NCBI RefSeq assembly: GCF_004682015.1
Contig: NZ_SMLM01000004.1
Span: 186,001-250,000, forward strand
Length of the DNA stretch: 64,000 nt
Direction of reading: 5' to 3'
Source of the DNA: Ramlibacter henchirensis
GTDB taxonomy: Bacteria; Pseudomonadota; Gammaproteobacteria; Burkholderiales; Burkholderiaceae_C
Positions 1 to 15,276 of this stretch are shown here, in pieces (within the stretch, counting starts at the first letter, position 1; each line of letters begins with the position of its first letter). Under the pieces are notes generated by a model, which was given only the letters and a program-made list of their open reading frames with translations, was not told where the DNA came from and ran no database searches. The position numbers and the translations under genes are program-made.

Positions 1-3000
1 CCCGTCGCTCACCGTGTAGCTGAAGCGGGCAGGCCCGTTGAAGTCCGCGGCCGGCGTGAAGGTGATGGTGCTGCCCGAAAGGCTGACCGTGCCGCCCAGG
101 ATCGCGGAGACGCCGGTGATCGAAGGCGAGTCGAACAGGTCCGGGTCGGAGTCGTTCGCCAGCAGCGTGGAGGCGGCGATCACCTTCGGCGTGTCCTCCG
201 TCGCTGCCACCGTGTCGGCGCCGGCGGTCGGCGGCGAGTTGAGCAGCACGATGTTGACGTGCACCGTGGCGGTCGCGAAACCGCCCCGCCCGTCGCTCAC
301 CGTGTACTCGAAGCTGGCCGGGCCGGTGTAGAGGGGCTGCGCCACGAACAGCACCGTATTCCCGAGCAGCGTCACCGTGCAGTGATCCGACGAGCCCACG
401 GAGACGACCGTCAGCGTGTCGCCCTCGAGGTCGAAATCGTTGGCCAGCAGAGCCGCCGTGTTGATGGTCAGATTGAGGGTGCCGGCAGTGAGGTTGTCGT
501 CGTTGGCCACCGGCGCGTCGTTCGCGGGCGCGACGTTCACGGTCACAGAGCCCGTCGACTCCGCGCCGCTCGGGTCCTTCACCGTGTACGTGAAGGTCGC
601 GGCGCCGTTGAAGTCGGCCTGCGGCGTGAAGACGATGTTGCCGCCGGAGAGCGCCACGGTCCCGCCCGTGCCGCTGGTGACACCGGTGAACGTCAGCGCG
701 TCGCCTTCGAGGTCGCTGTCGTTGAGCAGCAGCGTGCCGGGGGCGATCACCAGCGGCTGGTCTTCAGTGCCGGATACAGAGTCGGCCGCGGTGACCGGCG
801 CGTCGTTGACGGGGTTGACCGTGATCTGCAGCGACTGCGCCAGCGTGTCCGCGCCGCCGCCGTTGTCCTTCACCTGGAAGCCGAAGGTCGCGGTCCCGAC
901 GGCGTTGCTCGCGGTGACGAAGCGCATGCCGCGCAGTTCCTGCAGCGTGTACTCGCCCGTCGTGACGTCGGTGCCGTCCGCGAGCGTGATGCGGCCCAGG
1001 CTCGCAGGCGGCAGGGCCGCCACGATGAAGGTCAGGCCCTGCCCCGCCTCATCGGCGCCGCCGCCGGGGCCATAGTTCACCGCGCCGAGGCCGAGTCCGG
1101 TGCTGCCGCTGTCCTCGGCGACCACCAGGTCGGACACGACGCCGCCCACGGGAGCGTCGTTCACCGGGACCACCGTGATGCTGGTCACGGCGGTCGCCGT
1201 GCTGAACGCAGTGCCGGCGCCACTGAGCGTCGAGTTGCCCAGCCCGCCCGCGCTGCCCGAGGTGCCGTCCCAGGCGGCGAAGCCCAGCGTCGCCGTGCCG
1301 GTCCAGTCCGCAGCCGGCACGAACCGAACGCGCGTCAGCGCGTCGGCCAGCAGCAGCCGCGCGCTGCCCGCGGACGGGCTGCCGAAAGCGAGCCAGGTGG
1401 TGCCACCGTCCCTCGTGTACTGCCAGCTGCCGTGGCTGTTGTCCACGCTGACGACGGCGATGCCGCGCGTGCCCGTGGGGTCGTCCACCTGCCCCGCGAC
1501 AAGGTCGGCCACCAGCGTCCCGGCATCCGCGGTGTCCTCCTGGACCGGCGCCATCGGGTTCGCGCCGTTGAGCACCGGTGCGCGGTTGGTGACGGTGAGC
1601 CTGAGCGTGTGGTTCAGCCGGTCCGTGCCGCCGTTGTCGGTCCCGCCGTTGTCCAGCACCTCGAAGGCCACGGTCGCCACGCCCGGCGTCGCATTGAGGC
1701 CGGACCGGAAGACCATGCCCTGGAACTGCTCCCACGTGTAGACCGTTCCCAGGCTCACGGGTGTCACGCCGTCGGCCAGCAGGATGACGACGCGATCGGG
1801 AATGGCGGTGAAGCGGAACGTGAGCGCCTGGCCAGCTTCGTCGGTGGCCGTGGCCGGCCCGGGCGCGAAGCTTCCGCCGGCCAGCATCGGCACCGGGGCG
1901 GCGCCCTCCTGGACCGTGCCGCCCGTGGTGTTGCTGGCGACCGGGGCGTCATTTCGGGCGACGACCGTGGTCACCGACGTCGCCGTCGCCGCGCTGTACG
2001 CAAACGGCCCGCCGTTGTACGAAACATCCCCCAGCGTGCCGGGCGTGCCCACCGTGCGGTCCCACGCGCGGAAGGTGATGCCGGCCGTGCCCATCGTGCT
2101 GTTCCAGTCCGCCGACGGCAGGAACCGCACGCGCGTCAGCGTGTCGGCGGCGAGCTGCATCGCGCTGGTATTGCTCAGCCCCGCCAGCGACGTCCAGGTG
2201 GTGCCGCCGTCCATCGTGAATTGCCAGGTGCCGTTGCCCGAAGTGCCGATGACGGCGATGCCGCCCTGGCTGCCGCTGGTGTCGAAGACTTGCCCCGCGA
2301 TGATGTCGCTCACCAGCACGCCGGCTCGTTGCGCCGCACTGGCCCAGGGCGGCGGGGTGCCCGAAGGCGCGTTGTTGGTCCAGTCGAAGTCCTCGTAGAC
2401 GGTCAGGGGCGAATGGGCCCCGTCGAGCACCGGCGCCCGGTTGACGACCACGTTGACCGTGAACGTCGCCGTGTCGGTCGCGTCGTTGGCCGTGCCGCCG
2501 CTGTCGCGGGCCGCGAAGGAGAACGCCTGCGTGCCGAGCGAGCCGATCCCGTAGGACTCGAACTGCATGCCCTGGATCTGGGCCAGCGTGTAGCTCGCGC
2601 CCAGCACCACCGGCGTGGTGCCGTCGGCCAGGTACGTCGTGCCCAGGCCGGACGGCAGGCTGGTGATCGTGTAGCCGAGGATGGACTGCGCCGCCTCGTC
2701 GCCGCCACCGCCGGTGCCGACCGTGAAGCCTGCCAGTCCGAGCGAAGTGGTCGGCGTACCGTCCAGGACGACCAGCGGCCCGGGCGCAACGCTGGGCGCA
2801 TCGGTGCGCACTGGCGCATCGTTCACCGCGCCGACGACGACGGTGGCGCTCGCGGTCGCCGTGCTGAAGGCGGTCGAGCCTCCGTTCAGGGTCGTGTCGG
2901 CCGTGAGGCCGCCGTTGCCCGTGCTGCGGTCCCAGGCGCGGAAGGTGAAGGCCGGCGAGGTGCCGTTCCAGTTGGGCGCCGGGTTGAAGCGCACCCGCCA

Positions 3001-6000
3001 CTGGCCGCCGGCCTCCAGCAGGATCGCGTTGGTGCTGCTGGCCGCGCCCAGCGAGCTCCAGCTGGTGCCGCCGTTGCTGGTGTACTCCCAGGTGCCGGCG
3101 CTGCCGCCCGCCGCGGCGATCACGGCGATGCCCAGCGAGTTGCCCGGGTCGGTGACCTTGCCCGCGATCAGGTCGGCCACGCGCATGCCGTTGCCCGGCA
3201 CGTCCTCGACGGTGCCGGGCATGGCATTCACGCCGCTCAGGACCGGCGCGACGTTGCGCACGCGGATGGTGATGGACTCGACCAGCGTGTCCACGCCGCC
3301 GTTGGCCATGCCGCCGTCGTCCTTCACGATCCAGCTGAAGGTGCCCACGGCGTTCTGCACGCCGGCCGCCGCCTTGAAGCGCATGCCCTGGATCTGCGCG
3401 AGGGTGTAGCTCGTGTTGGCTGTGACGGCGGTTACGCCGTCGGCGAGGTAGACCGTGCCCATGCCGGCTGCCGGCACGGTGGCCACCGAGTAGCTCAGGG
3501 TCTGCGCGTAGTACTCGTCCGCGGCGTAGCCGGAGATGTACTGCATGGCCCCGAGGCCGAGCGACGTGATGGGCGCCGCTTCGTTCACCGTCACGTTGGC
3601 CGGCGCTGCGACGAACGTGCCGAGGTTGACGTCGTAGCGCACCGGGATGTCGTTGACCGGGATGACCGTGAGCTCCGCTGTCGCGAACGTGCTGCTGAAA
3701 GCGGTGGTGCCGCCCACGGCGCTCGTCGAAGCTGTTCCACCGGACACGCCGCTCGTGCCGTCCCACGCCCGGAACTCGAAGCCCGGGATGCTGCCGTTGA
3801 TGTTGGCGCCGGGGGTGCCGACGAACCGCACGCGCGCGTCGGGCCCCAGCAGCCGGGAGTTGTTCGTGGTTCCCGACAGCGCGAGCCAGGTCGTGCCGCC
3901 ATCCAGGCTGTACTGCCAGGTGCCGTTGATGTTGCCGTTGGGCATGTCGACCACGGCGATGCCGAGGAAGCCGCCGGCGTTGGCGACCTTGCCTGCGACG
4001 AGGTCGCTCACCCGAATTCCGATGCCGGGCTGGTCCTCCAGCTGCATGAACGCATTCCCGGAGGCGGCCAGCACCGGGGCCGCGTTGGTGACGGTGATCG
4101 TGATCGACTGCGACAGCGAGTCGAGTCCACCACCAATCGTGCCGCCGTCGTCGCGGACCGTGAAGGCGAAGGTGCCGCTGCCCGGCGCGCTCGACTGGAA
4201 GCGCATCGTCTGCAGCTGCGCGAGCGTGTAGCTGGCATTGACGGTGACGGGCGTGCCGTCGTCCAGCTGCACGCTGCCGACGCCGGTGGGAAGCGCCGTG
4301 ACCGTGACGGTGACGCCCTGCCCTGCTTCATCCGCACCGCCACCCGGGCCATAGCCCGGGAGGCCCAGCGGAGCGGTTGTGCCTTCGAGCACGTTCAGGT
4401 TGCCCAGCGTTCCAGCCGTGAGAACCGGTGCGTCATTGACGGCGGTGACGGTGACGCTGGCGGTGGTCGTGGCGGCGCTGAAGGCACTCGTGCCGCCGAC
4501 CACGCCCGCCGACACGACGCTGCCGTGCGTGCCCGCGCTGCGGTCCCAGGCCCGCAGAGCGATGGAGCTGGTGCCGGCGAAGTTCGCGTTCGGCACGAAC
4601 CGCACGCGCGTATTCGTGTCGGCCGCCAGCAGCAAGGCGTTACCGCTGGCGAGAGGAGCGAGGGTGGTCCAGGTCGTCCCATCCAGCGTGTACTGCCAGC
4701 TGCCGTTGCTGGTGTCCGCGCCGACGATGGCGATGCCGCGCGGCGCACCGGCGTCGTCGTCCGTGATCCGTCCGGCCACGAGGTCGACCACGCGCGTGCC
4801 GGTCCCCGGGGCCGCGTCCTCGACCTGCGCGGGCAGGGTGATCGCCGTGCCCGCCAGCACCGGCGCGCTGTTGGGGAAACCGCCGAAGACCGCGACGACG
4901 CCGTCGCCGCCGGTGCTGTAGTTGCTGTCGTAACCGTCGGACGTCGCCAGGCCACCGACCGTGACCGACCCCACCATGTAGACGCGGTTGCCCGTGCCCC
5001 AGGCGACGCCGCCGGTGGCCATGCCGGTGCCGTAGTACGTCCCATAGGCCAGGTCGCTGCTGCCGCCGCCCTTGGGCTTGAGCACGATCACGAAGCCCGT
5101 GGTGCCGCTGGTGTTGGTGCGGCTGACCGCGTCGGACGTGGTCGGGAAGTTCGAGGTGTCGGTCGAGCCCACGATGGCCACGTAGCCGCCCGACACGGCC
5201 ACGCCGGTGGGACTGTCGGTGAGCGTGCTGGACGTCGCGCCTCCCGCCGTGAGGCTGCCGCCGATGAAGGTGGAGTACTCCAGCGACGCGGCGCCCGTGA
5301 GCGTCGTGTCGTAGATGCGCAGGTAGCCGGTCTCGTGCGTGTAGGCCGTGGTCGCGAAGGCGCCTGCCGTCGTGGCGAAGCCCTGGCTCGGATCCTTGAT
5401 GCGCCCGACCACGTAGGCACGGCCGCTGTCGTCGGCCGCCACGCCGGTGATGGTGTCCGCCTTGGTGCCACCCACGTAGGTCGAGTAGGCGATGGCCCCC
5501 GACGCGTTGTACTTGACCAGGAAGCCGTCATCCGTGCCGGGACGCGTGGTCTGCGCGCCTCCCGTGATGACGAGATCGCTCGAGAGCGTGGTACCAGCGA
5601 CATAGACGTTGCCTGCCGAGTCCACGGCCACGCCGGCGGCGCTGTCGTTGCCACTGCCGCCGTACTGCAGCTTGGCCAACGAGGTCCCGGCGGCCGAGTA
5701 CTTGTTCAGGAACGCGTCGTCCGACGTGCCCGAGATCGTGCCGACGACATGGATCGTGCCGGCCGCGTCCACCGCCACGCCGCTGCCGACGTCGGTGTTG
5801 CCGCTGCCGCCGAAATAGGTGCTGAAGACCAGGCCGTTGCCGGCGGCGTTCAGCTTCGCGACGAAGGCATCCTGCGTGCCGTTGCGCGCGGCCTGGTCGC
5901 TGCCCGCGGAGACGCCGACGAAATCCGTGGACCGGGTCCAGCCGGTGACGATCGCATTGCCGCTCGCGTCGACCGCGATCGCGGTGCCCTCCTCCGTGCT

Positions 6001-7053
6001 GCTGCCGCCGAAGCGGGTGGCATAGATCAGGCTGGTGAGGTCGGCATTGAACTTGGCCACGTAGGCCTCGCTGCCGTCGGAGCCGCTCGCCAGCCGGCTG
6101 CCGAAAATGCCGCTGCTGGAAGTCGTGTGGCCGGTGACGTAGACGGACCCGTCGGCGCCCACGGCCACGCCGAGCGCGGTCTCCGCTCCGCCTTCGCCGA
6201 AATAGGTCGCGTGCGTCAGCACCGGGTCCACCACGAGGGCGCGGGTGGTGTCGTAGGGGCCGACCACGATGCGCACGGTGCCGTCCGCCAGCAGCTCGTA
6301 GTGGCTCTCGACGCTCTCGCGGCCTTGTGCACCTTGCTGGTAGCTCACTGGCGCCTGGAATCGGACCTCGCGGTTCGTGCCGGCCACCTGGAGCACCAGG
6401 TCGCCATCGGCATCCAGCCGCACGTCGTCCACGCCATGGAAGCGCAGCAGCAGCTTCGACGCGTCGGCGCCCGGGGCCAGCAGGAAGTCGTATTCCAGCT
6501 GGCCCTGGTTGCCGTAGTAGCGGACGTCGATGCCGTCCCAGACGCCCTCGTACCGCACGCTGCCGTAGTTGGCGATGTCGGTCGTCCACTTCGACGGGTC
6601 CTGTCCCACCAGGTGGTTGCTGCGCGTGGCCAGCAGGTTCTCGCCGGTGGCGGTGCCGGGCTGCGCGCCCACCAGTTCCAGCCGCACCGGTTGTTCGGCG
6701 CCGTCCAGCAGCAGTTCGGCCTGGCCGCCGCCGAGGCGCACGGCGTAGCCGATCCCGGTCGCGGCGAAATCGACGCCCTCGCCCAGTTGGCCGGCATCGG
6801 CCTCGAACTGCAGCGGCGTCAGCGCATAGGCCGAGCGGACTTCGCTCTCGGTCGGCGTGGCGGCGGTTGCGGTTGCGGTGTATTCGAGGCCGTCGTCGAG
6901 CGTGCGCGTCTCGGTGGCGTCGCTGCCGGCCGTGGCGGCCAGCAGGGCGCCGGCATCGGCCGAGTACAGCAGCCGTGGTTCCAGCCACTCGGCATGCGGA
7001 GCGATCCGGCGTCGCCGTGCGGGTCTCCTGCTTCGCAGCCAGCTGCGGGTCAT
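1..7053 (-). CDS. Giant LEPR-XLL surface/secreted protein with SBBP propeller and cadherin-like repeats (3' partial)
   Basis: The frame stays open for 2351 codons and leaves the left edge without a stop. Residues 24-33 read LEPRLLYSAD, the LEPR-XLL signature found at the N-terminus of very large exported proteins, after an Arg-rich stretch. Residues ~65-260 resemble the domain that commonly precedes SBBP repeats (PLQFEADAGQ, YYGNQGQLEYDF). Residues ~265-700 carry SBBP beta-propeller repeats (GNVYVAGTT, DGFLVKYN). From ~715 onward, cadherin/Ig-like modules alternate: type A with WQYT-DGGTTW and FRAWD, type B with AQIQGMRF and VKDDGG; the last part in view has LLANDSD modules ending FSYTVSDG. 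Probably an adhesin or matrix protein. Its ATG lies 7 bases after the upstream adaptor gene's stop, so it is very likely the cargo of that operon. The C-terminus, where a secretion or anchor signal would sit, is outside the window. Confidence 0.85.
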   Translation of the reverse strand, partial: MTRSWLRSRRPARRRRIAPHAEWLEPRLLYSADAGALLAATAGSDATETRTLDDGLEYTATATAATPTESEVRSAYALTPLQFEADAGQLGEGVDFAATGIGYAVRLGGGQAELLLDGAEQPVRLELVGAQPGTATGENLLATRSNHLVGQDPSKWTTDIANYGSVRYEGVWDGIDVRYYGNQGQLEYDFLLAPGADASKLLLRFHGVDDVRLDADGDLVLQVAGTNREVRFQAPVSYQQGAQGRESVESHYELLADGTVRIVVGPYDTTRALVVDPVLTHATYFGEGGAETALGVAVGADGSVYVTGHTTSSSGIFGSRLASGSDGSEAYVAKFNADLTSLIYATRFGGSSTEEGTAIAVDASGNAIVTGWTRSTDFVGVSAGSDQAARNGTQDAFVAKLNAAGNGLVFSTYFGGSGNTDVGSGVAVDAAGTIHVVGTISGTSDDAFLNKYSAAGTSLAKLQYGGSGNDSAAGVAVDSAGNVYVAGTTLSSDLVITGGAQTTRPGTDDGFLVKYNASGAIAYSTYVGGTKADTITGVAADDSGRAYVVGRIKDPSQGFATTAGAFATTAYTHETGYLRIYDTTLTGAASLEYSTFIGGSLTAGGATSSTLTDSPTGVAVSGGYVAIVGSTDTSNFPTTSDAVSRTNTSGTTGFVIVLKPKGGGSSDLAYGTYYGTGMATGGVAWGTGNRVYMVGSVTVGGLATSDGYDSNYSTGGDGVVAVFGGFPNSAPVLAGTAITLPAQVEDAAPGTGTRVVDLVAGRITDDDAGAPRGIAIVGADTSNGSWQYTLDGTTWTTLAPLASGNALLLAADTNTRVRFVPNANFAGTSSIALRAWDRSAGTHGSVVSAGVVGGTSAFSAATTTASVTVTAVNDAPVLTAGTLGNLNVLEGTTAPLGLPGYGPGGGADEAGQGVTVTVTALPTGVGSVQLDDGTPVTVNASYTLAQLQTMRFQSSAPGSGTFAFTVRDDGGTIGGGLDSLSQSITITVTNAAPVLAASGNAFMQLEDQPGIGIRVSDLVAGKVANAGGFLGIAVVDMPNGNINGTWQYSLDGGTTWLALSGTTNNSRLLGPDARVRFVGTPGANINGSIPGFEFRAWDGTSGVSGGTASTSAVGGTTAFSSTFATAELTVIPVNDIPVRYDVNLGTFVAAPANVTVNEAAPITSLGLGAMQYISGYAADEYYAQTLSYSVATVPAAGMGTVYLADGVTAVTANTSYTLAQIQGMRFKAAAGVQNAVGTFSWIVKDDGGMANGGVDTLVESITIRVRNVAPVLSGVNAMPGTVEDVPGNGMRVADLIAGKVTDPGNSLGIAVIAAAGGSAGTWEYTSNGGTSWSSLGAASSTNAILLEAGGQWRVRFNPAPNWNGTSPAFTFRAWDRSTGNGGLTADTTLNGGSTAFSTATASATVVVGAVNDAPVRTDAPSVAPGPLVVLDGTPTTSLGLAGFTVGTGGGGDEAAQSILGYTITSLPSGLGTTYLADGTTPVVLGASYTLAQIQGMQFESYGIGSLGTQAFSFAARDSGGTANDATDTATFTVNVVVNRAPVLDGAHSPLTVYEDFDWTNNAPSGTPPPWASAAQRAGVLVSDIIAGQVFDTSGSQGGIAVIGTSGNGTWQFTMDGGTTWTSLAGLSNTSAMQLAADTLTRVRFLPSADWNSTMGTAGITFRAWDRTVGTPGTLGDVSYNGGPFAYSAATATSVTTVVARNDAPVASNTTGGTVQEGAAPVPMLAGGSFAPGPATATDEAGQALTFRFTAIPDRVVILLADGVTPVSLGTVYTWEQFQGMVFRSGLNATPGVATVAFEVLDNGGTDNGGTDRLNHTLRLTVTNRAPVLNGANPMAPVQEDTADAGTLVADLVAGQVDDPTGTRGIAVVSVDNSHGSWQYTRDGGTTWLAFGSPSAGSARLLLADALTRVRFVPAADWTGTATLGFAAWDGTSGSAGGLGNSTLSGAGTAFSTATAVTSITVVPVNDAPVGGVVSDLVVAEDSGSTGLGLGAVNYGPGGGADEAGQGLTFIVAALPPASLGRITLADGTDVTTGEYTLQELRGMRFVTASNAVGTATFGFQVKDNGGGADTLAQSLQITVNPVNDAPVTAADSVSGTEDQPLVIAPGTLLLNDSDLEGDALTFTGVTSGTGGTVALSGGNIVFTPQADFNGAATFTYTVKDPSGAESTGSVTVNVAPANDAPVANDDNLTAGTLNLTINTAALLANDFDLEGDTLTVVSVGSSDHCTVTLLGNTVLFVAQPLYTGPASFEYTVSDGRGGFATATVHVNIVLLNSPPTAGADTVAATEDTPKVIAASTLLANDSDPDLFDSPSITGVSAILGGTVSLSGSTITFTPAADFNGPARFSYTVSDG
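840..4930 (-). repeat. A/B tandem super-repeats encoding Ig/cadherin-like modules
   Basis: Within the giant gene, the Trp-Gln/Glu-Tyr (or Trp-Gln-Phe) codons of the type A module recur near 4690, 3910, 3085, 2220 and 1420, a period of about 780-865 bases. Each period is one type A module plus one type B module, about 260-290 residues together. Sequence similarity is at protein level and moderate at DNA level, so this is old domain duplication, not a recent satellite. Confidence 0.75.
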
Positions 7054-7060
7054 GGCGACC

Positions 7061-7969
7061 TCAGAGTCCCTGTCGCACCCGCGGGCCGGGCGTCAGGGGC
7101 GCCTTGAATGGAGGTGGGGCGGCCGTCCCCGACACGGGCCTCGCCGCCGCGGCCGTGTCGCCGCCGGGCAGGTCGGCCTTGCAGCGCAGGCCGGCCGGCA
7201 GGGTGTTGTTCGGGTTGGCCAGCGCCAGCCGCGCGCGGAACGTGTTGCTGGCGCCTTCGATCACGCCGTCGACCAGGCTCACGGTGGCCAGGCGTGGCTG
7301 GGCGCCGGGGAAATCGGGCGTGATGCGCAGGGACACGCCCTTGCGCACCACGGGGTAGAGCGATGCGGGGAGCACCACCTCGACCCGCAGCGGATTGACC
7401 ACGGCGATGCGGAACATCGGCTTTTCCTCGACCCGTTCGCCCACCGACATGTAGCGGTCCGCCACCACGCCGTCGCTCGGGCTGCGGATCGTGCGCAGCC
7501 CAAGCTGCGCGCGGGCCAGTTCGTGCTCGCGCGCATAGATGTCGCGCTGCTCGCGCGCCTGGATCAGCCGGTTCTCGGCCACGAGGGCTTCGGCGCGTGC
7601 CTGCTCGAGGGCCTGCGGGCTGATGTATTCCTGCCGCGCGAGGTCGGCCGCGCGGGCGAGTTTCTGGCGCGCCAGTTCGGCGTTGGCCTCGGCCGCTTTC
7701 AGTTCGCCAAGCCCTTGCGCGCGGCCTTCGGCCACGCTCACCGACATGCGCTCGACGTCCGCGCGCAGGGTCGCGAGCGGCTGGCCGGCGCGGACCCGTT
7801 CGCCGCGCTCGACATGGACCTGTTCGATGACACCGACCACCGGGCTGCCCAGCTCGGAAACGCTGGCCGGCTCGATCAGGCAGCCCAAGGCCTGCGCGCC
7901 TGCCGCCGCATGGGCGGCGCCAGCCAGCCACAAAGTCAGGGACAGCAGCGCACGGCCGGACGGATTCAT
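7061..7969 (-). CDS. HlyD/MFP-type periplasmic adaptor
   Basis: 302 residues. Residues 1-27 form a signal peptide (LLSLTLWLAGAAHAAAGAQA). A lipoyl-like half motif follows (GVIEQVHVERGERVRAGQPL, ~45-65), then an Ala/Glu/Arg-rich helical hairpin (~75-155), the second lipoyl half (IRSPSDGVVADRYMSVGERV) and a beta-barrel region. This is the layout of membrane-fusion proteins that bridge an inner-membrane exporter to an outer-membrane channel. The start ATG overlaps the stop of the SecA-like gene (ATGA), so translation is coupled. The giant LEPR-XLL gene follows at once. No outer-membrane factor or ABC/RND pump is visible beside it. Family is clear; its partner is inferred. Confidence 0.85.
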   Translation of the reverse strand: MNPSGRALLSLTLWLAGAAHAAAGAQALGCLIEPASVSELGSPVVGVIEQVHVERGERVRAGQPLATLRADVERMSVSVAEGRAQGLGELKAAEANAELARQKLARAADLARQEYISPQALEQARAEALVAENRLIQAREQRDIYAREHELARAQLGLRTIRSPSDGVVADRYMSVGERVEEKPMFRIAVVNPLRVEVVLPASLYPVVRKGVSLRITPDFPGAQPRLATVSLVDGVIEGASNTFRARLALANPNNTLPAGLRCKADLPGGDTAAAARPVSGTAAPPPFKAPLTPGPRVRQGL

Positions 7970-9876
7970 CCCAATCCCCAGCGGCTGAAGTTCAGGTCGC
8001 GCTCTTCGTTCTCAGCCATGCGGGAAAGTCTTACACGTTGTTGCGTCCTAGTACAGACTTCTGCCACTTGCGCCGCCCGAAGGCTTGTCCAGACGAATGA
8101 ACGGGGGAACCGCAGCCGCCGGGTTAGGGTTTGCCACCATGCGGGCAGCCAGCGCTGGAGCAGCGGGAAGTCCTGCGCCACCATCACTTCGCAGCTTCCG
8201 GGCTGGCCTTGCCGTCCGGTGCGGCCGAGGAACTGGCGGTCGATGCGGGGGGATGAATTGAGTTGGCAGAGGATGACGTGCAGGCCGCCCGCCGCCAGCA
8301 CCTCCGGGGCCACGGTGATGTGGGCGCCGCGGCCGGCCATGCTGGTGGCGACGGTGAGCCGGCCCGGCAGCCCCGCCTGGCCGATCACTTCGGCCTCGTC
8401 CTGGTCCTGTCGCGCGTTGAGCACCACCGGATCGAGCCCGCGCGCGCGAAGGACGTCGGCCAACGCGTCCGACTGCTGCACGCTTTCGGTCCCCACGAGC
8501 ACCGCGCGTCCCGCACCGCAGAGTGCCGCCGCGCGCGCCGCCACCTCCTGCCACAGCGTGGCGCTGTCGGCGAACAGGCGCGTGGGTCCGTGCTGCACCC
8601 GGCGCGGCGTGCGCGGATGCACGCGCACCATGCCCAGCCCGTAGACCGCCCGCAGCTCCGCGCCCGATCCGTGCAGCGTGCCGCTGATGCCGGCCAGCCG
8701 GAGGTAGCGGATGAAGAAGCGCTGGAACGTGACTTGCGTCAGGGTGGCGTTGCGCCGAGTCAACGGTACGCCCTCCTTGAGTTCAACCAGCTGGTGCAAT
8801 CCGCGGCTCCACGCGCGCCCCGGCGCCGTGCGGCCCGTGGTCTCGTCGACCAGCTGCACCTCGCCATCGCGCACCACGTAGTCACGATCGCGCGAGAGGC
8901 GCGCGACGGCGGTGACCGCCAGTTCGAGCGTCGCGGCCCGGTGCTGCGGATGTCCGAGCAGCGGATGCGGGTCGGCCGGCCAATCGTCCAGATGCGCCAA
9001 GCCCGCCTCCGTCAAGCGCACGGAGCCCGCTTCCAGCGTGTAGTCGCGCCCCTGGATCAGGCGCCGCGCGATCAACAGCGCACGGCGCAGGAACGCCTGT
9101 TCGGCCAGCGATGGCGCAGCCTGCGACAGCACGAGCGGCACGCGCGCCTCGTCGATCAGGATGGTGTCGGCCTCGTCGAGGATGGCCATGCACAGCCCGC
9201 GCAGCACCGGGGCCTGCTGCACGGCGCCCTGGCGCAGGCGGCGCTCCAGCGGCGAAAGGTCCGTCGGCTGCAGCAGGCTGTCGCGCAGGTAGTCGAAGGC
9301 CAGTTCCTTGGCCGTGCAGTAGGTGACGTCGCAGGCGTAGGCCGCGCGGCGTTCGCCCATCTCCATGGATTGCGCGATCGACGACACCGAGAGGCCGAGC
9401 CGCGCATAGAACACCCGCAGTTCGTCGGCGTCGCGCTGGGCGAGGTAGTCGTTGGCGGTGACGACGTGCACCGGCGTGCCCGCCAGGGCCGCCGCTGCGG
9501 CGCCGAGAGCAATCGCCACCGTCTTGCCCTCGCCCGTGTCCATCTCCACCAGCCGCTGATCGAGCAAGGCGCGGGCCGCCATCAGCTGCTGCCAGTAGGG
9601 CCGCACGCCCTTGGTCTGTTTCATCGCCTCGGCCGACAGCCGCAAGGCCTGCTGCAACCACGCGTCGTCCCGACGCGCGTGTGGCACCTTGCGCAGCGCC
9701 TGCAGCGCGGGGCCCAGCGCGATCGGCGCCTGCAGCTCCACATGCAGCGCGAGGGCGCTTTCCGTCAGGCTCCGCGGGCGCAGCTTCGTGCGCCGCCGCA
9801 GTTCCTCGACCGGCAGGCGCATCTGCGGATAGGGCCCCCAGACCAGCCCCGGGAAAGGCCAGCTCGCGGTGCTCAT
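7966..9876 (-). CDS. Accessory SecA-like ATPase lacking the C-terminal region
   Basis: 636 residues from an ATG overlapping the M50 gene's stop (ATGA); housekeeping SecA is about 900. The SecA motor is recognisable: Walker A TGEGKT (114-119), VTANDYLAQRD (140-149), ELAFDYLRDS, Walker B/motif II ILDEADTILIDEAR (~232-245), a preprotein-binding segment with VDETTGRTAPGR and GLHQLVELKEGV, and the second motor lobe TSMAGRGAHIT ... DRQFLGRTGRQGQPGS. The sequence ends soon after the second lobe, so most of the helical wing/scaffold and the Cys-rich C-terminal linker are missing. Its place between two adaptor/protease genes and a giant cargo suggests a dedicated export motor rather than general secretion. 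An RNA-helicase-like role is less likely given the SecA-specific motifs. Confidence 0.88.
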   Translation of the reverse strand: MSTASWPFPGLVWGPYPQMRLPVEELRRRTKLRPRSLTESALALHVELQAPIALGPALQALRKVPHARRDDAWLQQALRLSAEAMKQTKGVRPYWQQLMAARALLDQRLVEMDTGEGKTVAIALGAAAAALAGTPVHVVTANDYLAQRDADELRVFYARLGLSVSSIAQSMEMGERRAAYACDVTYCTAKELAFDYLRDSLLQPTDLSPLERRLRQGAVQQAPVLRGLCMAILDEADTILIDEARVPLVLSQAAPSLAEQAFLRRALLIARRLIQGRDYTLEAGSVRLTEAGLAHLDDWPADPHPLLGHPQHRAATLELAVTAVARLSRDRDYVVRDGEVQLVDETTGRTAPGRAWSRGLHQLVELKEGVPLTRRNATLTQVTFQRFFIRYLRLAGISGTLHGSGAELRAVYGLGMVRVHPRTPRRVQHGPTRLFADSATLWQEVAARAAALCGAGRAVLVGTESVQQSDALADVLRARGLDPVVLNARQDQDEAEVIGQAGLPGRLTVATSMAGRGAHITVAPEVLAAGGLHVILCQLNSSPRIDRQFLGRTGRQGQPGSCEVMVAQDFPLLQRWLPAWWQTLTRRLRFPRSFVWTSLRAAQVAEVCTRTQQRVRLSRMAENEERDLNFSRWGLG

Positions 9877-12017
9877 GCCTGCCCCGTGGGACTGAACTGC
9901 TTGATCAGCAGGCGCTGCAGGCGCGCAAACCACTGCAGGCCCAGGGGCTGCGGTGGCAGAACCAGCTTCACCCAGGCCCGGCCGCCGAACGCAGCGGCTT
10001 GCAGGGACGGCACCTCCGCGTCGAGCAGGAACACGGGCACGAGGGTCCTCACGCCATCGGGGTCGGCGGGATCGAGCGGGATCGGGCCGCCGAAGCGATC
10101 GCCCAGCGCTTGCGCCGGCAATTCCAGGCTCGCGCCCGGCGCCATTTCGGACAGCCGCGCCTCGTACACCGTGCCGACGCTTTCCGCGAGGCGGACTTCA
10201 ACGCCGCGGACGCGGCCGCGCGTGCGCAGGTAGTCGTCTTCCAGCAGGGCGATGCGAACGTGGGCGGAGTTCCCGGTGAGCACGTGGCCCAGCATCGCGC
10301 CGCGCCGCACGTAGCTGCCCGGCAGGTCCTGCGGGCGCGCCCACACCACCTCGCCGGCCACCCGCGCGCGCACCTCGAGTTGCGCCAGTTGCTCCTCGGC
10401 CCGCGCGAGTTCCGCGGCATTGCGCTCCAGGTCCTCGCCGACGGCCGCGGCGCGGACCGGCTGCTTGAGGAGCGCGCGGTACTGCTGCGCGAGCAGACCG
10501 GTGCGCTCGGACACGACTCTCTGATGGGCGGCCACCAGCACCGGGTCCTGCAGCAACACGAGCGCCTGGTCGGCTTCGGCGAGCGCGCCCTGGGGCAGCT
10601 CGATGCGCTCGACGAAACCGGCGGCGCCGGCGCGCAGCACTGCCTCCTCGGGCGGCCAGACCACGGCGCGCGCGACGACCGCGTTCGGCGCCGGCACCAC
10701 CAACAGGAGCACGACCGCCGCACCCGCGACCAGGCCTGCGGCGCGCAACGAGCGCCGGCGGAACGCAGGATCGCCGCCCTGCCCGCCGAGCGCCCAGCGC
10801 CAGGCATGGCGTCCGATCCAGGCCAGCAGCACCAGGGCTGCGATCCATCCGAGCAGCCACGACTGGTTGCCGATCCAGAACACCAGCGCGAGCAGGAGCA
10901 CGACGCGGTACACGGCGGCCGCGGGCGCGTACGCAGCGAGCCACTTGACTTCGCCTCGCGCCAGCAGCGGCGCCGGGCCTGCCGCCGGAGCGCCGATCCA
11001 CTCGCGCCAGCGGCGCGACCACCACGCATTGCTGCGCAGCGCCAGATTGGGCAGCTGCAGCGCGTCGCACAAGGCGTAGTAGCCGTCGAACCGCATCAGC
11101 GGATTGGCGTTGAACAGCACCGTCGAGAGCGAACAGGTCAGCAGCACCACCAGCGCGATGTCCCGCACGGTGCCCGGGCTCACCACCGACCAGACCCAAA
11201 GCGCGAAGCACGCCAGCGCGACTTCCACCAGGATGCCGGCGCCGCTGACGACCAGCCGCTGACGCGGATGCGGGAAGGCGTTGGCCGCGCCGGCGTCCAC
11301 GTAGGGCGCCGGCGTGAGGAACATCAGCGACACGCCCATCTCGTTGACCTGGCCCCCATAACGCCGGACGGCCAGGCCATGCCCCAGCTCGTGCAGGAGC
11401 TTGAGCACCGGATAGCAGAGCCAGGCGACCAGGTAGCTGGAGGGCGTGGCGAACAGGCGGTTGGCGTCGGCGCGCAGTTCGCCGAAATGGACGCCGGCCG
11501 CCAGCAGCGCCAGCAGCACCGCCGCCACCCACACGACGAACGCCGGGCGACGGAACAGCCAGTCGCCCACCGGCGCCAGCTTGTCCAGCCAGCGGGAGGG
11601 ATTCCCCAGCGGCATGCGCACCATCAGCGGATTGAGCATGCCCCGCTGCCGCTGCCGCGCGTCTTCGTCGCGGCGCGCGAACAGCAGCGACAGGTGCGGC
11701 GCTGCGTCGAAGCGCACCATGCCGCCGCGGAACAGCTGGGCGAGCAGTCGAAGCACCTCGTCCTGGGTCGGTGCGTCCTCGCGCTGCTTGCGCAACTCGC
11801 GTTGCCACAGTTGCTCCACCGGAGCCTGTCCGTCGAAGCGGGCGACCAGCGAGTAGGCCGCGGGATTCAGGCGCAGCTGGCGGCCTGAAGCCGGTTCCAC
11901 CAGCACGTGCCAGACCTGGTCCCGCACCTGCTGCCGCACGATGCGAAGCCCCGGGACCAGGCTGGGCCGCAGGCCCGCGACCCGGTGCCACGAGGCGCTG
12001 ACCAGCGGTTCGCTCAC
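9873..12017 (-). CDS. M50-family membrane metalloprotease fused to a HlyD-like adaptor domain
   Basis: 714 residues from a GTG overlapping the previous gene's stop (GTGA). Residues ~20-105 look like a PqqD-type peptide-binding domain (SGRQLRLNPAAYSLVARFDG). A multi-pass membrane core follows with zinc motif HELGH at 209-213 and the second signature NPLMRFDGYYAL, as in 'peptide zinc metalloprotease' proteins (site-2 protease fold). The C-terminal ~250 residues are a lipoyl/barrel-sandwich hybrid with an Arg/Glu-rich hairpin, like HlyD adaptors. Active-site residues appear intact, so it may cleave or chaperone a substrate at the inner membrane. The start was chosen because GTG-AGC-GAA gives overlap coupling; extending it upstream enters nonsense Arg-rich frame. 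Confidence 0.85.
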   Translation of the reverse strand: MSEPLVSASWHRVAGLRPSLVPGLRIVRQQVRDQVWHVLVEPASGRQLRLNPAAYSLVARFDGQAPVEQLWQRELRKQREDAPTQDEVLRLLAQLFRGGMVRFDAAPHLSLLFARRDEDARQRQRGMLNPLMVRMPLGNPSRWLDKLAPVGDWLFRRPAFVVWVAAVLLALLAAGVHFGELRADANRLFATPSSYLVAWLCYPVLKLLHELGHGLAVRRYGGQVNEMGVSLMFLTPAPYVDAGAANAFPHPRQRLVVSGAGILVEVALACFALWVWSVVSPGTVRDIALVVLLTCSLSTVLFNANPLMRFDGYYALCDALQLPNLALRSNAWWSRRWREWIGAPAAGPAPLLARGEVKWLAAYAPAAAVYRVVLLLALVFWIGNQSWLLGWIAALVLLAWIGRHAWRWALGGQGGDPAFRRRSLRAAGLVAGAAVVLLLVVPAPNAVVARAVVWPPEEAVLRAGAAGFVERIELPQGALAEADQALVLLQDPVLVAAHQRVVSERTGLLAQQYRALLKQPVRAAAVGEDLERNAAELARAEEQLAQLEVRARVAGEVVWARPQDLPGSYVRRGAMLGHVLTGNSAHVRIALLEDDYLRTRGRVRGVEVRLAESVGTVYEARLSEMAPGASLELPAQALGDRFGGPIPLDPADPDGVRTLVPVFLLDAEVPSLQAAAFGGRAWVKLVLPPQPLGLQWFARLQRLLIKQFSPTGQA

Positions 12018-13393
12018 CAGGGCGTGACCTTCCACCAGGCCAGCCGCAGCCAGTCGACGGCGCGATGGGCCAGCAGCCAGGCGATCGGCCGCCAGCCGAC
12101 GTCGACCTTGCCGATGCCGCTCAGGCCCGGGCGCAGTTCCGGCACGGCCTCGTCGAGCGTGGCCTCGACCTCGAAGTAGTTGCGGCCCTCCGCGGTGGTC
12201 GCGATCGGCACCACGCGACGGGTGACGAACCGCAGCGTGCGATCGGGCTGCGCGGTGAGCGCGAGCCGGCCCGTCTGGCCGGTCTTGACGCTGCCGATGT
12301 CGGCTTCGTCGACTTCCAGGATCAGGCGGAAGCTGTCGTTGGGCGCCAGCACCATCAACACGTCGCCGCGCTGGACGGGCGCGCCCAGGTTCTGGCTCAG
12401 GTCGCCCTTGATCACGATGCCGTCGAAAGGCGCCTCGATGCGCGCGCGCTGCAGCTGCATCTCGACCAGCGACAGCAGCGCCTGTGCCTCCGCGGCCTTG
12501 GCCTGGAAGGTGACCATCTGCGCGCGATCGGCGCCCGCCTGCGCGGCGCGCAAGGCGCCCTCGTGCTGGCGCACTTCGCTCTCGCGGCGCCGCCGCTCCA
12601 GCTCCAGGTCCTGCGATGCGAGTTCGGCCAGCACCTGGCCGGCCCGCACGCGGTCGCCCGGACGCACGTTGGCCTGCTGCAGGAAGCCGTCGCTGGCGGC
12701 GACCACCGCGCGCTGCACCGAGCCTTCCAGCCGGCCGGGCGCACTGACCCGCCAAGGCAAGGGAACGGCCAGCGCGATCAGCACGAACGCGATCGCACCG
12801 CCGACCGCGAACCGGCGTTGCCTGGGCGCCGCGAGGCGCTCACGCACGGTTTCGACCAGACGGACGTGCCAGGGAAGCGCCAGCTGCCGCTTCAACTCGA
12901 AGACCGGTGCGGCCAGCCGCGAAAGGTCCTGGAGCAGGGGGAGTTCGACGGCAGCGAAGCGGCCGGACGTGCGCTCCAGCGTCATCGCTCCCACGACGCG
13001 GGTCCCGTCCACCAGCGGCACGGAACAGGCGGCGCCCGCCGCGGCGAGCTGCCGGTGCGCGAGAGTGATCAGGTCGTGGTGCTCGAGTGGCGGCCAGGCG
13101 ACCGGCTGGTGCTGGTCCAGGGCCTCCTGCATCGCGTCGAGCAGGGCCGCGGTGGCCGGCTGGCCGGGCTGGAGTTCGGCCGGATGAGAACTGCCCGCGA
13201 GACGAAGGACGCCGTCGTCGAGCACACCGATCGCAACGCGGGCGCAACCCAGAAGGTCACAAAGTTCTGCGCCAAAACCCGCTGCCGACTCCGCCAGGCC
13301 CGCACGCGACAAGGCGGCCGCGAGCGGTCCCAGGAGGAGGGGCTCGGTCGCCAGGGGGCCTGCCGACTGCGGAGGTGGGCTGGAGAGGTCCAT
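12014..13393 (-). CDS. GAF-domain HlyD-type membrane adaptor, first gene of the export operon
   Basis: 459 residues. Residues ~35-170 form a GAF-like sensory domain (LCDLLGCARVAIGVLDDGVL, CSVPLVDGTRVVGAMTLE). One membrane span lies at ~195-212, followed by a lipoyl half (SDGFLQQANVRPGDRVRAGQ), an Arg/Glu-rich hairpin, the second half (IEAPFDGIVIKGDLSQNLG) and a barrel domain. So a cytoplasmic sensor is joined to a periplasmic adaptor arm, an uncommon combination. It heads the operon; no clear Shine-Dalgarno precedes its ATG. A possible promoter is TTGCAT, 17 bases, TGAGAA, just upstream. It could gate export in response to a ligand; that is inference. Confidence 0.82.
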   Translation of the reverse strand: MDLSSPPPQSAGPLATEPLLLGPLAAALSRAGLAESAAGFGAELCDLLGCARVAIGVLDDGVLRLAGSSHPAELQPGQPATAALLDAMQEALDQHQPVAWPPLEHHDLITLAHRQLAAAGAACSVPLVDGTRVVGAMTLERTSGRFAAVELPLLQDLSRLAAPVFELKRQLALPWHVRLVETVRERLAAPRQRRFAVGGAIAFVLIALAVPLPWRVSAPGRLEGSVQRAVVAASDGFLQQANVRPGDRVRAGQVLAELASQDLELERRRRESEVRQHEGALRAAQAGADRAQMVTFQAKAAEAQALLSLVEMQLQRARIEAPFDGIVIKGDLSQNLGAPVQRGDVLMVLAPNDSFRLILEVDEADIGSVKTGQTGRLALTAQPDRTLRFVTRRVVPIATTAEGRNYFEVEATLDEAVPELRPGLSGIGKVDVGWRPIAWLLAHRAVDWLRLAWWKVTPW

Positions 13394-13927: not shown

Positions 13928-15118
13928 TCACTCGATCTGCCCGCGGATCTCTCCGTTCGGGAACGCCGTGCTGTGGGCGTTGTAGTACAGGTTGCCTTGC
14001 TTGAACGCCAGGGCCTGCTCGGGGGTGAGCGTCGAATTCGCGGGGACGGACCAGACGCCGCCGCCGGCGTTGGTGAGCGGCACGATGGCCGGTCCGTTCT
14101 CGCCGGGCGCACCCGGATGCACGTGTGCCACGGTCACGTCCATGCCGCTGACCGTGATGCCGCCGGTGACCGCGCGCGTCGCGGAATCCAGGACCAGCGT
14201 TCCGGTCCCCGTGGCGGTCGACGGCGTAGGCGGCACTTCTTCGGCGCCGGTCAGGGTGGCGAACCGCACTTCGCGTCCGATCTGCCCGCGGATCTCTCCG
14301 CCCGGGAAGGTGGCGCTGTGGGCGTTGAAGTAGAGACCGCCGGTCCGCATCAGGGCCAGCTGCGCCTCGGTCAGCGTCGCATCGGCCGCGGCGACCCACG
14401 TGCCGCTGCCGGGGGCCGTTTCGGCGAAGTGGACGATGATCGGACCGTTGGTGCCGGCCGCGCCCGTGTGGATGTGAGCCGCCGCGGCCGTCATGCCGGT
14501 CAGCGTGATGCTCGAAACGAGCTTGCGTGTCGCCGGATCGACGGTGAGGCGCCCGACGCCCGACGCGCTCGATGAAGTGGGCGGCACTTCCTGCGCCGGC
14601 GACATCTGCGAGACGAACACCTCGCGTCCGATCTGCCCGCGGATCTCGCCGTTCGGGAACGCGGTGCTGTGCGCGTTGAAGTACAGCCCGCCGTTGGCGA
14701 AAGCCGCGGCCTGGGCTTCGGTCAGCGTCGCGCCGGCCGGCACCGACCAGGTGCCCGGCGAGGTCTGGGCGAGGTTGACGATGATCGGCCCGTTGACGCC
14801 CGACTCGCCCGTGTGGACGTGTGCCGCGGTCGCCGTGATGCCGGTGATCGTGATGCCGCCGCTCACGTTGCGCGTACCGCTTTCCAGCCTGAGAGTGCCG
14901 GTCCCCGCCGCGCCCGTGATCACCGGAGGATTCTCCTGCTCGCCGGTGAGCGTCGCGGACAGCGTCGTGGCCGTCGGCCCCACCTGCGACGGGTCGCCGG
15001 TGGTCGCGACGCCGCTGCCGCCGTCGCCACCCCCGCAGGCGACGAATCCCGCGCCGACCGCGGCGACCAGGACCCACTTGAATGAACCAGGGAGCTGCAA
15101 GAATCGGCTGAGTCTCAT
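13928..15118 (-). CDS. Lipoprotein with three CHRD domains
   Basis: 396 residues from the ATG with an AAGGAG box 7 bases upstream. A signal peptide ends in a lipobox-like AGFVAC, so it is probably a lipoprotein with a Gly-rich linker. Three tandem CHRD (chordin-type) domains follow, each with AAHVHTG-like (AHVHTGESG, AHIHTGAAG, AHVHPGAPG), GLYFNAHS or NLYYNAHS, and FPNGEIRGQI motifs. CHRD domains occur in secreted bacterial proteins of largely unknown function; the conserved His residues may bind metal. The last domain ends exactly at the C-terminus. It is on the same strand as the export operon but 0.5 kb upstream of its first gene, so a functional link to the giant surface protein is only possible. 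Confidence 0.85.
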   Translation of the reverse strand: MRLSRFLQLPGSFKWVLVAAVGAGFVACGGGDGGSGVATTGDPSQVGPTATTLSATLTGEQENPPVITGAAGTGTLRLESGTRNVSGGITITGITATAAHVHTGESGVNGPIIVNLAQTSPGTWSVPAGATLTEAQAAAFANGGLYFNAHSTAFPNGEIRGQIGREVFVSQMSPAQEVPPTSSSASGVGRLTVDPATRKLVSSITLTGMTAAAAHIHTGAAGTNGPIIVHFAETAPGSGTWVAAADATLTEAQLALMRTGGLYFNAHSATFPGGEIRGQIGREVRFATLTGAEEVPPTPSTATGTGTLVLDSATRAVTGGITVSGMDVTVAHVHPGAPGENGPAIVPLTNAGGGVWSVPANSTLTPEQALAFKQGNLYYNAHSTAFPNGEIRGQIE

Positions 15119-15276
15119 GGGGATCTCCTTGAGCAAACAAGTTGAGGCAGCCCGTGCGGCGCGAGGCGGCAACGGGAAGTTCAGATTAGTTCACGAACGT
15201 CGCCTGAGCTTGACCGTCTGCACACATGCAGCAGCCACAATGACGGCTTGCAGCACCTGCTGAAGGCCTTGTTCCC

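Follow-up and report, generated by a model that had tools for sequence, protein, structure and literature searches.

Kamneva, Poudel, and Ward (PLoS One 2015; PMC4452313, main text) reported a single locus that encodes a GAF-HlyD protein, an M50 protease, a secondary SecA_DEAD protein, and an HlyD adaptor and that lacks an ATP-binding cassette (ABC) gene. The authors suggested that SecA serves as the ATPase and M50 as the pore, noted a TolC-type (OEP) gene in some of these loci, and argued for horizontal transfer of the locus. In the laboratory strain Methylobacterium extorquens AM1, the four genes are given there as META1p2402-2399. They named no cargo, and the words "giant," "LEPR," and "cadherin" are absent from the main text. 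Here, we describe the same gene set in Ramlibacter henchirensis, on a stretch of 64,000 nucleotides (the window, G000:C4:186001-250000) within a genome of 4.79 Mb, where it adjoins the gene of a giant protein with an N-terminal LEPR-XLL leader. An annotation made from the letters of the window without database searches (the sequence-only reading) had held that this set matches nothing described so far; the main text of 2015 contradicts that statement, and the four-gene machine itself has been known in print since then. No later description was found in the literature searched, which covered few subscription papers, and within that literature the cargo and its leader, the leader-reader hypothesis, the optional SecA, a sister system, and a C-terminal domain of the giants are new. 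Overall, we consider it likely that the operon specifies a dedicated exporter that works without an ABC pump and whose cargo is marked by an N-terminal LEPR-XLL leader.

The locus was compared with the closest described systems. With the Kamneva locus, as presented in its main text, it shares the four genes, with M50, HlyD, and GAF-HlyD encoded beside a wing-less SecA_DEAD protein that has no SecA_SW match, the lack of an ABC gene in the operon, and a proposed mechanism in which SecA is the energy source and M50 forms the pore. To that description the present analysis adds the leader, the PqqD domain, the SecA-less members, and the sister system. Type I secretion systems (T1SSs; HlyB-HlyD-TolC and, from general knowledge, the LapBCE type) likewise combine HlyD-type membrane fusion proteins with giant repeat adhesins as cargo. 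In contrast to these, the operon has no ABC exporter beside its adaptors, its giant has no detectable RTX domain (a common, not universal, mark of type I cargo), an M50 membrane protein is present, and the tag appears to be N-terminal rather than C-terminal. Accessory SecA2 systems share a second SecA with motor and preprotein-binding domains, including a DEAD motor with Walker A and B, whereas here the scaffold-wing is largely absent, as is the helical wing with its two-helix finger, the partners are HlyD and M50 proteins, and the operon has no SecY2. Finally, in pathways for ribosomally synthesized and posttranslationally modified peptides (RiPPs; e.g., daptide HExxH), a PqqD-like domain is also joined to M50, but here an HlyD adaptor is fused C-terminally and, in place of a small peptide, the neighbor is a giant that resembles an adhesin.

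All five operon genes lie on the minus strand, their closest named protein relatives are from Ramlibacter, and their start codons were revised by comparison with relatives. Open reading frames and Pfam/NCBIfam searches bore out the domains given by the sequence-only reading. The features are as follows.

12014..13393, minus strand: GAF-HlyD protein, 459 amino acids (Pfam GAF 3.7e-8, HlyD_3 3.7e-19)
9873..12017, minus strand: PqqD-M50-HlyD protein, 714 amino acids (Pfam, NCBIfam, profile searches)
7966..9876, minus strand: secondary SecA-like ATPase, 636 amino acids (Pfam SecA_DEAD, profile match, structure model)
7061..7969, minus strand: HlyD-type periplasmic adaptor, 302 amino acids (TIGR01730 5.6e-34, HlyD_3 1.7e-16)
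1..7053, minus strand: LEPR-XLL giant, residues 1-2,351 (DUF7948, SBBP propeller repeats, cadherin/Ig repeats)
6955..6990, minus strand: LEPR-XLL leader core EWLEPRLLYSAD, giant residues 22-33 (NF012209)

In the GAF-HlyD protein, the GAF domain (~residues 43-164) is followed by one membrane segment, assigned by eye, and then the adaptor. The overlaps described earlier were found again (GTGA at 12017-12014, ATGA at 9876-9873, and ATGA at 7969-7966), together with the 7-base gap between the HlyD gene (7061-7969) and the start of the giant at 7053. The giant, previously given as more than 2,351 residues, is present as described; its frame continues past the window to C4:178780, for a total of 4,757 amino acids.

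Conservation of this arrangement was assessed in the best 80 of 351 confirmed loci from a SecA-like alignment scan of genome contigs, a set that includes no Planctomycetes. The order GAF-HlyD, M50, SecA, HlyD, LEPR giant recurs in 46 of the 80 loci; therefore, the five-gene arrangement is not a matter of chance. A leader profile of 22 residues was derived from 46 seeds in the window and the same 80 loci. Searched against all 9,769 stop-to-stop frames of at least 60 residues, it returned 60 matches scoring from 43.3 down to 12.8 bits, with the next score at 4.6. These matches place a LEPR gene in 59/80 loci, in addition to the window. Sixteen of the 21 leader-less loci end before the last module gene or no more than ~470 bases beyond it.

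Co-occurrence was then counted in whole genomes drawn from the family, the class, and the phylum. The M50 module, the leader, and both together were found in 22, 22, and 21 of 150 family genomes (Fisher P = 2e-23), in 33, 30, and 28 of 369 class genomes (P = 1e-34), and in 38, 24, and 23 of 319 phylum genomes (P = 5e-24); these tests ignore kinship, and the three draws overlap by a few genomes. Thresholds were chosen by eye at score gaps: leader E ≤0.001; M50 365 bits with A1 in the family, where the next group scored ≤198; and M50 380 bits with A4, where the next score was 326 in the class and 354 in the phylum. Excluded were 19 of 54 family leader places at E 0.001-0.1 and the 11, 19, and 47 genomes (family, class, phylum) with sub-threshold M50 matches only. 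The leader profiles were partly built from loci and a genome later counted. Misses are likely, because the initial screen was limited to 45, 18, and 21 leader candidates per genome in family, class, and phylum and to three M50 candidates per genome in class and phylum. Where a leader place shares a contig with M50, the two are ≤15 kb apart in 28/29 (family), 17/18 (class), and 15/17 (phylum) cases, mostly 1-4 kb, with the leader downstream or upstream. Leader places on contigs without M50 numbered 6/35, 20/38, and 11/28, respectively. The sequence-only reading had proposed a search for co-occurrence of the M50, SecA-like, and GAF-HlyD genes with LEPR-XLL proteins, and the linkage is kept in relatives in both the locus and genome surveys. 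That the operon serves the LEPR-XLL giant as its cargo, as first suggested, is likely and strongly supported by the LEPR genes in 59/80 loci and by the joint occurrence of leader and M50.

The body of the giant was rejected as the link to the module. The window's giant has a body of the tandem-95 repeat type; repeats of this type were detected at E ≤0.001 in 82 of 150 family genomes (8/150 above the family cut-off), and 62 of these genomes are among the 128 that lack the module. Because such repeats are common in module-less genomes, they do not account for the link.

The operon extends past the window. Two further genes follow the giant:

L003:10297-12783: hybrid histidine kinase, 828 amino acids, directly after the giant; its start overlaps the giant's stop by TTGA
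L003:8357-10285: receiver-GGDEF-EAL regulator gene, 642 amino acids, after the hybrid histidine kinase

Since both genes come after the giant, the operon looks like a seven-gene cluster. Relatives of the N-terminal part of the kinase were found in 20/80 loci, mostly directly behind the giant; many loci stop inside the giant. This association bears on a different account, in which the leader only marks large adhesins in general and owes its linkage to a biofilm cassette whose genes are transferred together. Kinase and cyclic di-GMP genes do often accompany the giant, the co-occurrence counts ignore kinship, and the main text of Kamneva et al. (PMC4452313) argues for horizontal transfer of the locus. 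However, this account has only a very slim chance of being correct, given the tandem-95 proteins in 62/128 module-less family genomes and the pairing of leader and M50 whether the module precedes the giant, the giant precedes the module, or SecA is lost.

Left of position 1, where a TolC-like or ABC gene might have been expected, the giant, the kinase, and the GGDEF-EAL gene were found, with no TolC or ABC domain. Pfam and NCBIfam searches detected no ABC, resistance-nodulation-division (RND), or TolC-type domain in any of the seven genes; thus, no ABC exporter that could account for secretion of the giant adjoins it within the operon. A T1SS-type ABC query had no match in 79 of the 80 loci, with a weak match in one, and matched 8 of ~178 stretches overall.

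Several observations weigh against a dedicated exporter for LEPR proteins. One LEPR giant sits 610 kb from the module, and five loci (L049, L051, L061, L075, L079) have room for a LEPR gene yet show no leader match. The module occurs without a detected leader in 1/22, 5/33, and 15/38 genomes of family, class, and phylum; in the sole family case, G109, the contig ends right after M50. Conversely, LEPR-like matches without the module were found in G061, G622, G361, and G433. That in G061, the sole leader-only family genome, lies in an Arg-rich frame of 356 residues and is probably spurious, and that in G622 lies in a 351-residue frame; those in G361 and G433 look real. A TolC-type profile, built from three sister-system proteins only, had no match in any of the 80 SecA-type loci. 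In microarray data from one strain, three of the four locus genes were little or not expressed (PMC4452313, main text). Finally, PMC10868602 reports a giant of Vibrio that starts with LEPR-XLL and bears RTX domains at its C terminus; a T1SS could export this protein.

The Vibrio protein raises the alternative that a type I (ABC) system encoded elsewhere exports the giant, while the linked genes regulate or trim it. The R. henchirensis genome has nine ABC_membrane matches, eight TolC-type frames, and one T1SS-like locus at ~C3:360-372 kb, where TolC-type, HlyD, and ABC genes stand beside a repeat protein judged RTX-like by eye:

L165 (G000:C3:352001-372000): type I secretion genes and RTX-like repeat protein

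Because these genes adjoin their own RTX-like protein, the genome appears to keep an ordinary type I system for other cargo. In addition, neither half of the window's giant matches an RTX family in Pfam or NCBIfam, the ABC query is nearly absent from the loci, as described above, and the adaptors co-occur with the leader across genomes. Type I export of the giant was therefore disfavored; we retain it as a highly unlikely rival to the dedicated exporter.

The leader was characterized further. In the window's giant, it scores 17.3 bits with NF012209 against a cut-off of 17, so that the curated LEPR-XLL definition applies, and it scores 40.1 bits with our own profile and 64.1 bits with alignment A3, which includes this leader itself. 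Over 60 leaders, the core reads E-x-[LM]-E-[P]-R-x-L-[YFHL]-S-[AG]-[DG], with the residues E (60/60), E (60/60), R (59/60), L (60/60), and S (58/60) conserved in an alignment anchored on the pattern; a basic stretch usually precedes it. The best 12-residue hydropathy mean of these leaders is at most 1.86 (median, 1.35), compared with 1.99 to 2.52 for three Escherichia coli signal peptides, a modest margin. By this measure, the LEPR leader does not resemble a signal peptide of the Sec pathway.

At the other end, many giants that follow the module terminate in a hydrophobic domain (GYVxWLxRGGxLxxSxLSxLPAWRxxDPLPVL) and an acidic tail. The pattern matched 12 frames, and the domain was recognized by eye in 8 of 13 more frames and in L211. 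The window's giant carries it at L003:12783-12990, with relatives in L007, L018, L021, L026, L027, L030, L034, L037, and L121. Pfam gave no match over the domain of the window's giant, and it was not seen by eye in the inspected frames that precede the module. The domain is possibly a membrane anchor. Two long open frames were also observed in the surveys: a leader-like match at G565:C115:112847-112921 lies in a 19,427-residue open frame of a module-bearing genome, and G361:C57 (L117) has a 7,373-residue frame with a LEQRLLLS-type start in a complete genome without an M50 match at E 1e-70.

The M50 protein consists of three parts: an N-terminal PqqD-like domain (~residues 22-107), a multi-helix M50 domain that bears HELGH and NPxxRxDGY, and a C-terminal periplasmic adaptor (residues 442-692). 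The HExxH motif and the distal N/D residues are invariant in 47/47 M50 sequences, although the window protein itself scores 26.9 bits with the Pfam M50 model, slightly below the cut-off of 27.2. A daptide HExxH protease model (NCBIfam) matches the protein at 2e-45. For the N-terminal part, a family profile matched the PqqD structure 3g2b at E 3.9e-5 over residues 22-107, whereas the single window protein fell below the cut-off (Pfam, 19.6 versus 23.4; 3g2b, E 0.23); PF05402 (PqqD) is precomputed in many of 120 listed homologues. In a fold search with the PqqD and M50 model, the lists were filled by HlyD and biotin-carrier chains. From these sequence features, the PqqD domain is a candidate leader receptor, and the M50 domain is a candidate leader protease.

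The SecA-like protein matches SecA_DEAD at 2.1e-75 and has no SecA_SW match at E 0.01 (Pfam). It keeps the motor and preprotein-binding domains, and the scaffold-wing region is absent beyond one long helix. Walker A (TGEGKT) and DEAD are invariant in 44/44 SecA-like sequences. In SecA, the wing and the two-helix finger contact SecY and push into it. The SecA-like profile aligns Bacillus subtilis SecA only up to residue 606-609, and the structure model (predicted local distance difference test, 87; predicted template modeling [TM] score, 0.87) ends after one long helix; therefore, both wing and finger are missing. The missing wing agrees with the 2015 report (PMC4452313, main text).

These features were weighed against the possibility that the protein is a SecA2-type motor working with SecYEG, in which case the giant would cross the inner membrane by Sec, and the role of the M50 and HlyD proteins would be limited to processing it and carrying it across the periplasm. 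By TM-score, the model is closest to SecA in SecA-SecY complexes (5eul, 0.81; 6itc, 0.78), and the SecA motor motifs are invariant. Nevertheless, the parts that contact SecY are missing, the leaders have no clear hydrophobic core, albeit by the modest margin given above, and some lineages have no second SecA, though ordinary SecA could serve there. Sec crossing is therefore unlikely, and the best reading of the SecA-like ATPase within an ABC-less exporter is that of an optional motor.

Members without SecA were sought in 40 class and phylum loci and in 20 genomes, all picked by hand and not at random. The SecA-like gene stands beside M50 in 30 of the 40 loci and is absent beside M50 in nine, with one locus cut; seven of these nine have a leader match. 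Among the 20 genomes, eight bear M50 without a second SecA (G354, G497, G338, G684, G523, G437, G442, and G431), of which G442 and G431 have borderline M50 scores of 390 to 403 bits. In G490, G457, G230, and G501, the SecA-like gene is located away from one M50 copy. A LEPR giant stands beside M50 in six of the eight second-SecA-less genomes, five by profile and G437 by eye; in G431 the leader is on another contig, and in G523 none was detected.

A sister group provides a further case. Its loci (L108-L111 and L157-L164) contain M50, HlyD-type, and TolC-type genes, with M50 scores of 242 to 326 bits with A4 in the class survey. No SecA-like gene is present in any of the 12, a TolC-type gene is present in 11 (four Pfam-confirmed), and five sister-group genomes have ordinary SecA only. 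The two giants adjoining the sister module whose starts were visible (L109 and L110) carry LEPRxMFDGA leaders, and similar starts are present in two DUF4347 proteins (L172 and L179) encoded on other contigs in sister-type genomes. DUF4347 was rejected as a marker of the sister system, since it occurs in 27/150 genomes, of both types, and in seven of neither type.

Given the eight M50-bearing genomes without a second SecA, SecA was rejected as a universal core, and together with the SecA-less sister loci they show that it is not the common core. The sequence-only reading had proposed an exporter built on a SecA-type motor with no ABC or RND pump; the single conserved unit without an ABC gene was upheld, and the central place of SecA was not. 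The protein common to all variants of the system, SecA-less ones included, is PqqD-M50-HlyD.

A working model can be drawn from these domains. The PqqD-like domain of the M50 protein would bind the leader in the cytoplasm, and the M50 domain, which has an active site of the site-2 type, would span the inner membrane and probably cleave the leader. The HlyD domain of the M50 protein, together with GAF-HlyD and the small HlyD adaptor, may form a periplasmic conduit into whose gate the truncated SecA-like ATPase would feed the unfolded giant. A TolC-type channel encoded elsewhere in the genome would complete the path; the sister system has such a gene in its locus. A giant with the hydrophobic C-terminal domain could end as an anchored surface fiber, which the kinase and cyclic di-GMP regulator encoded after it might switch. 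In its most specific form, we propose tentatively that a LEPR leader read by a PqqD/RiPP recognition element, and a site-2-type protease-HlyD fusion as the gate, serve a tripartite channel free of ABC, RND, or major facilitator superfamily (MFS) pumps, with SecA optional and very long cargo. If true, giant proteins can leave by tripartite export in the absence of ABC, RND, and MFS pumps, and a leader reader familiar from pathways for small peptides has been put to new use with adhesin-like cargo. Tying the locus to LEPR-XLL leaders supplies a short signal, with PqqD as its candidate receptor and M50 as its candidate protease, and a class of cargo whose open frames reach 19,427 amino acids. The orphan SecA locus of 2015 had no cargo in the literature found; a cargo and a tag are now tied to it.

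A promoter and terminator scan upstream of the operon found nothing. Upstream of the operon, a frame at window positions 13928-15172 (minus strand) encodes a secreted-looking protein with three repeats, which we take to resemble CHRD domains. About 3 kb past the last operon gene, L003:4142-5476 (minus strand) presumably encodes a Clp N-domain joined to TIR. Antisense to the giant, a 2,368-residue frame at window positions 1-7107 (plus strand) is probably a side effect of high G+C content and not a gene.

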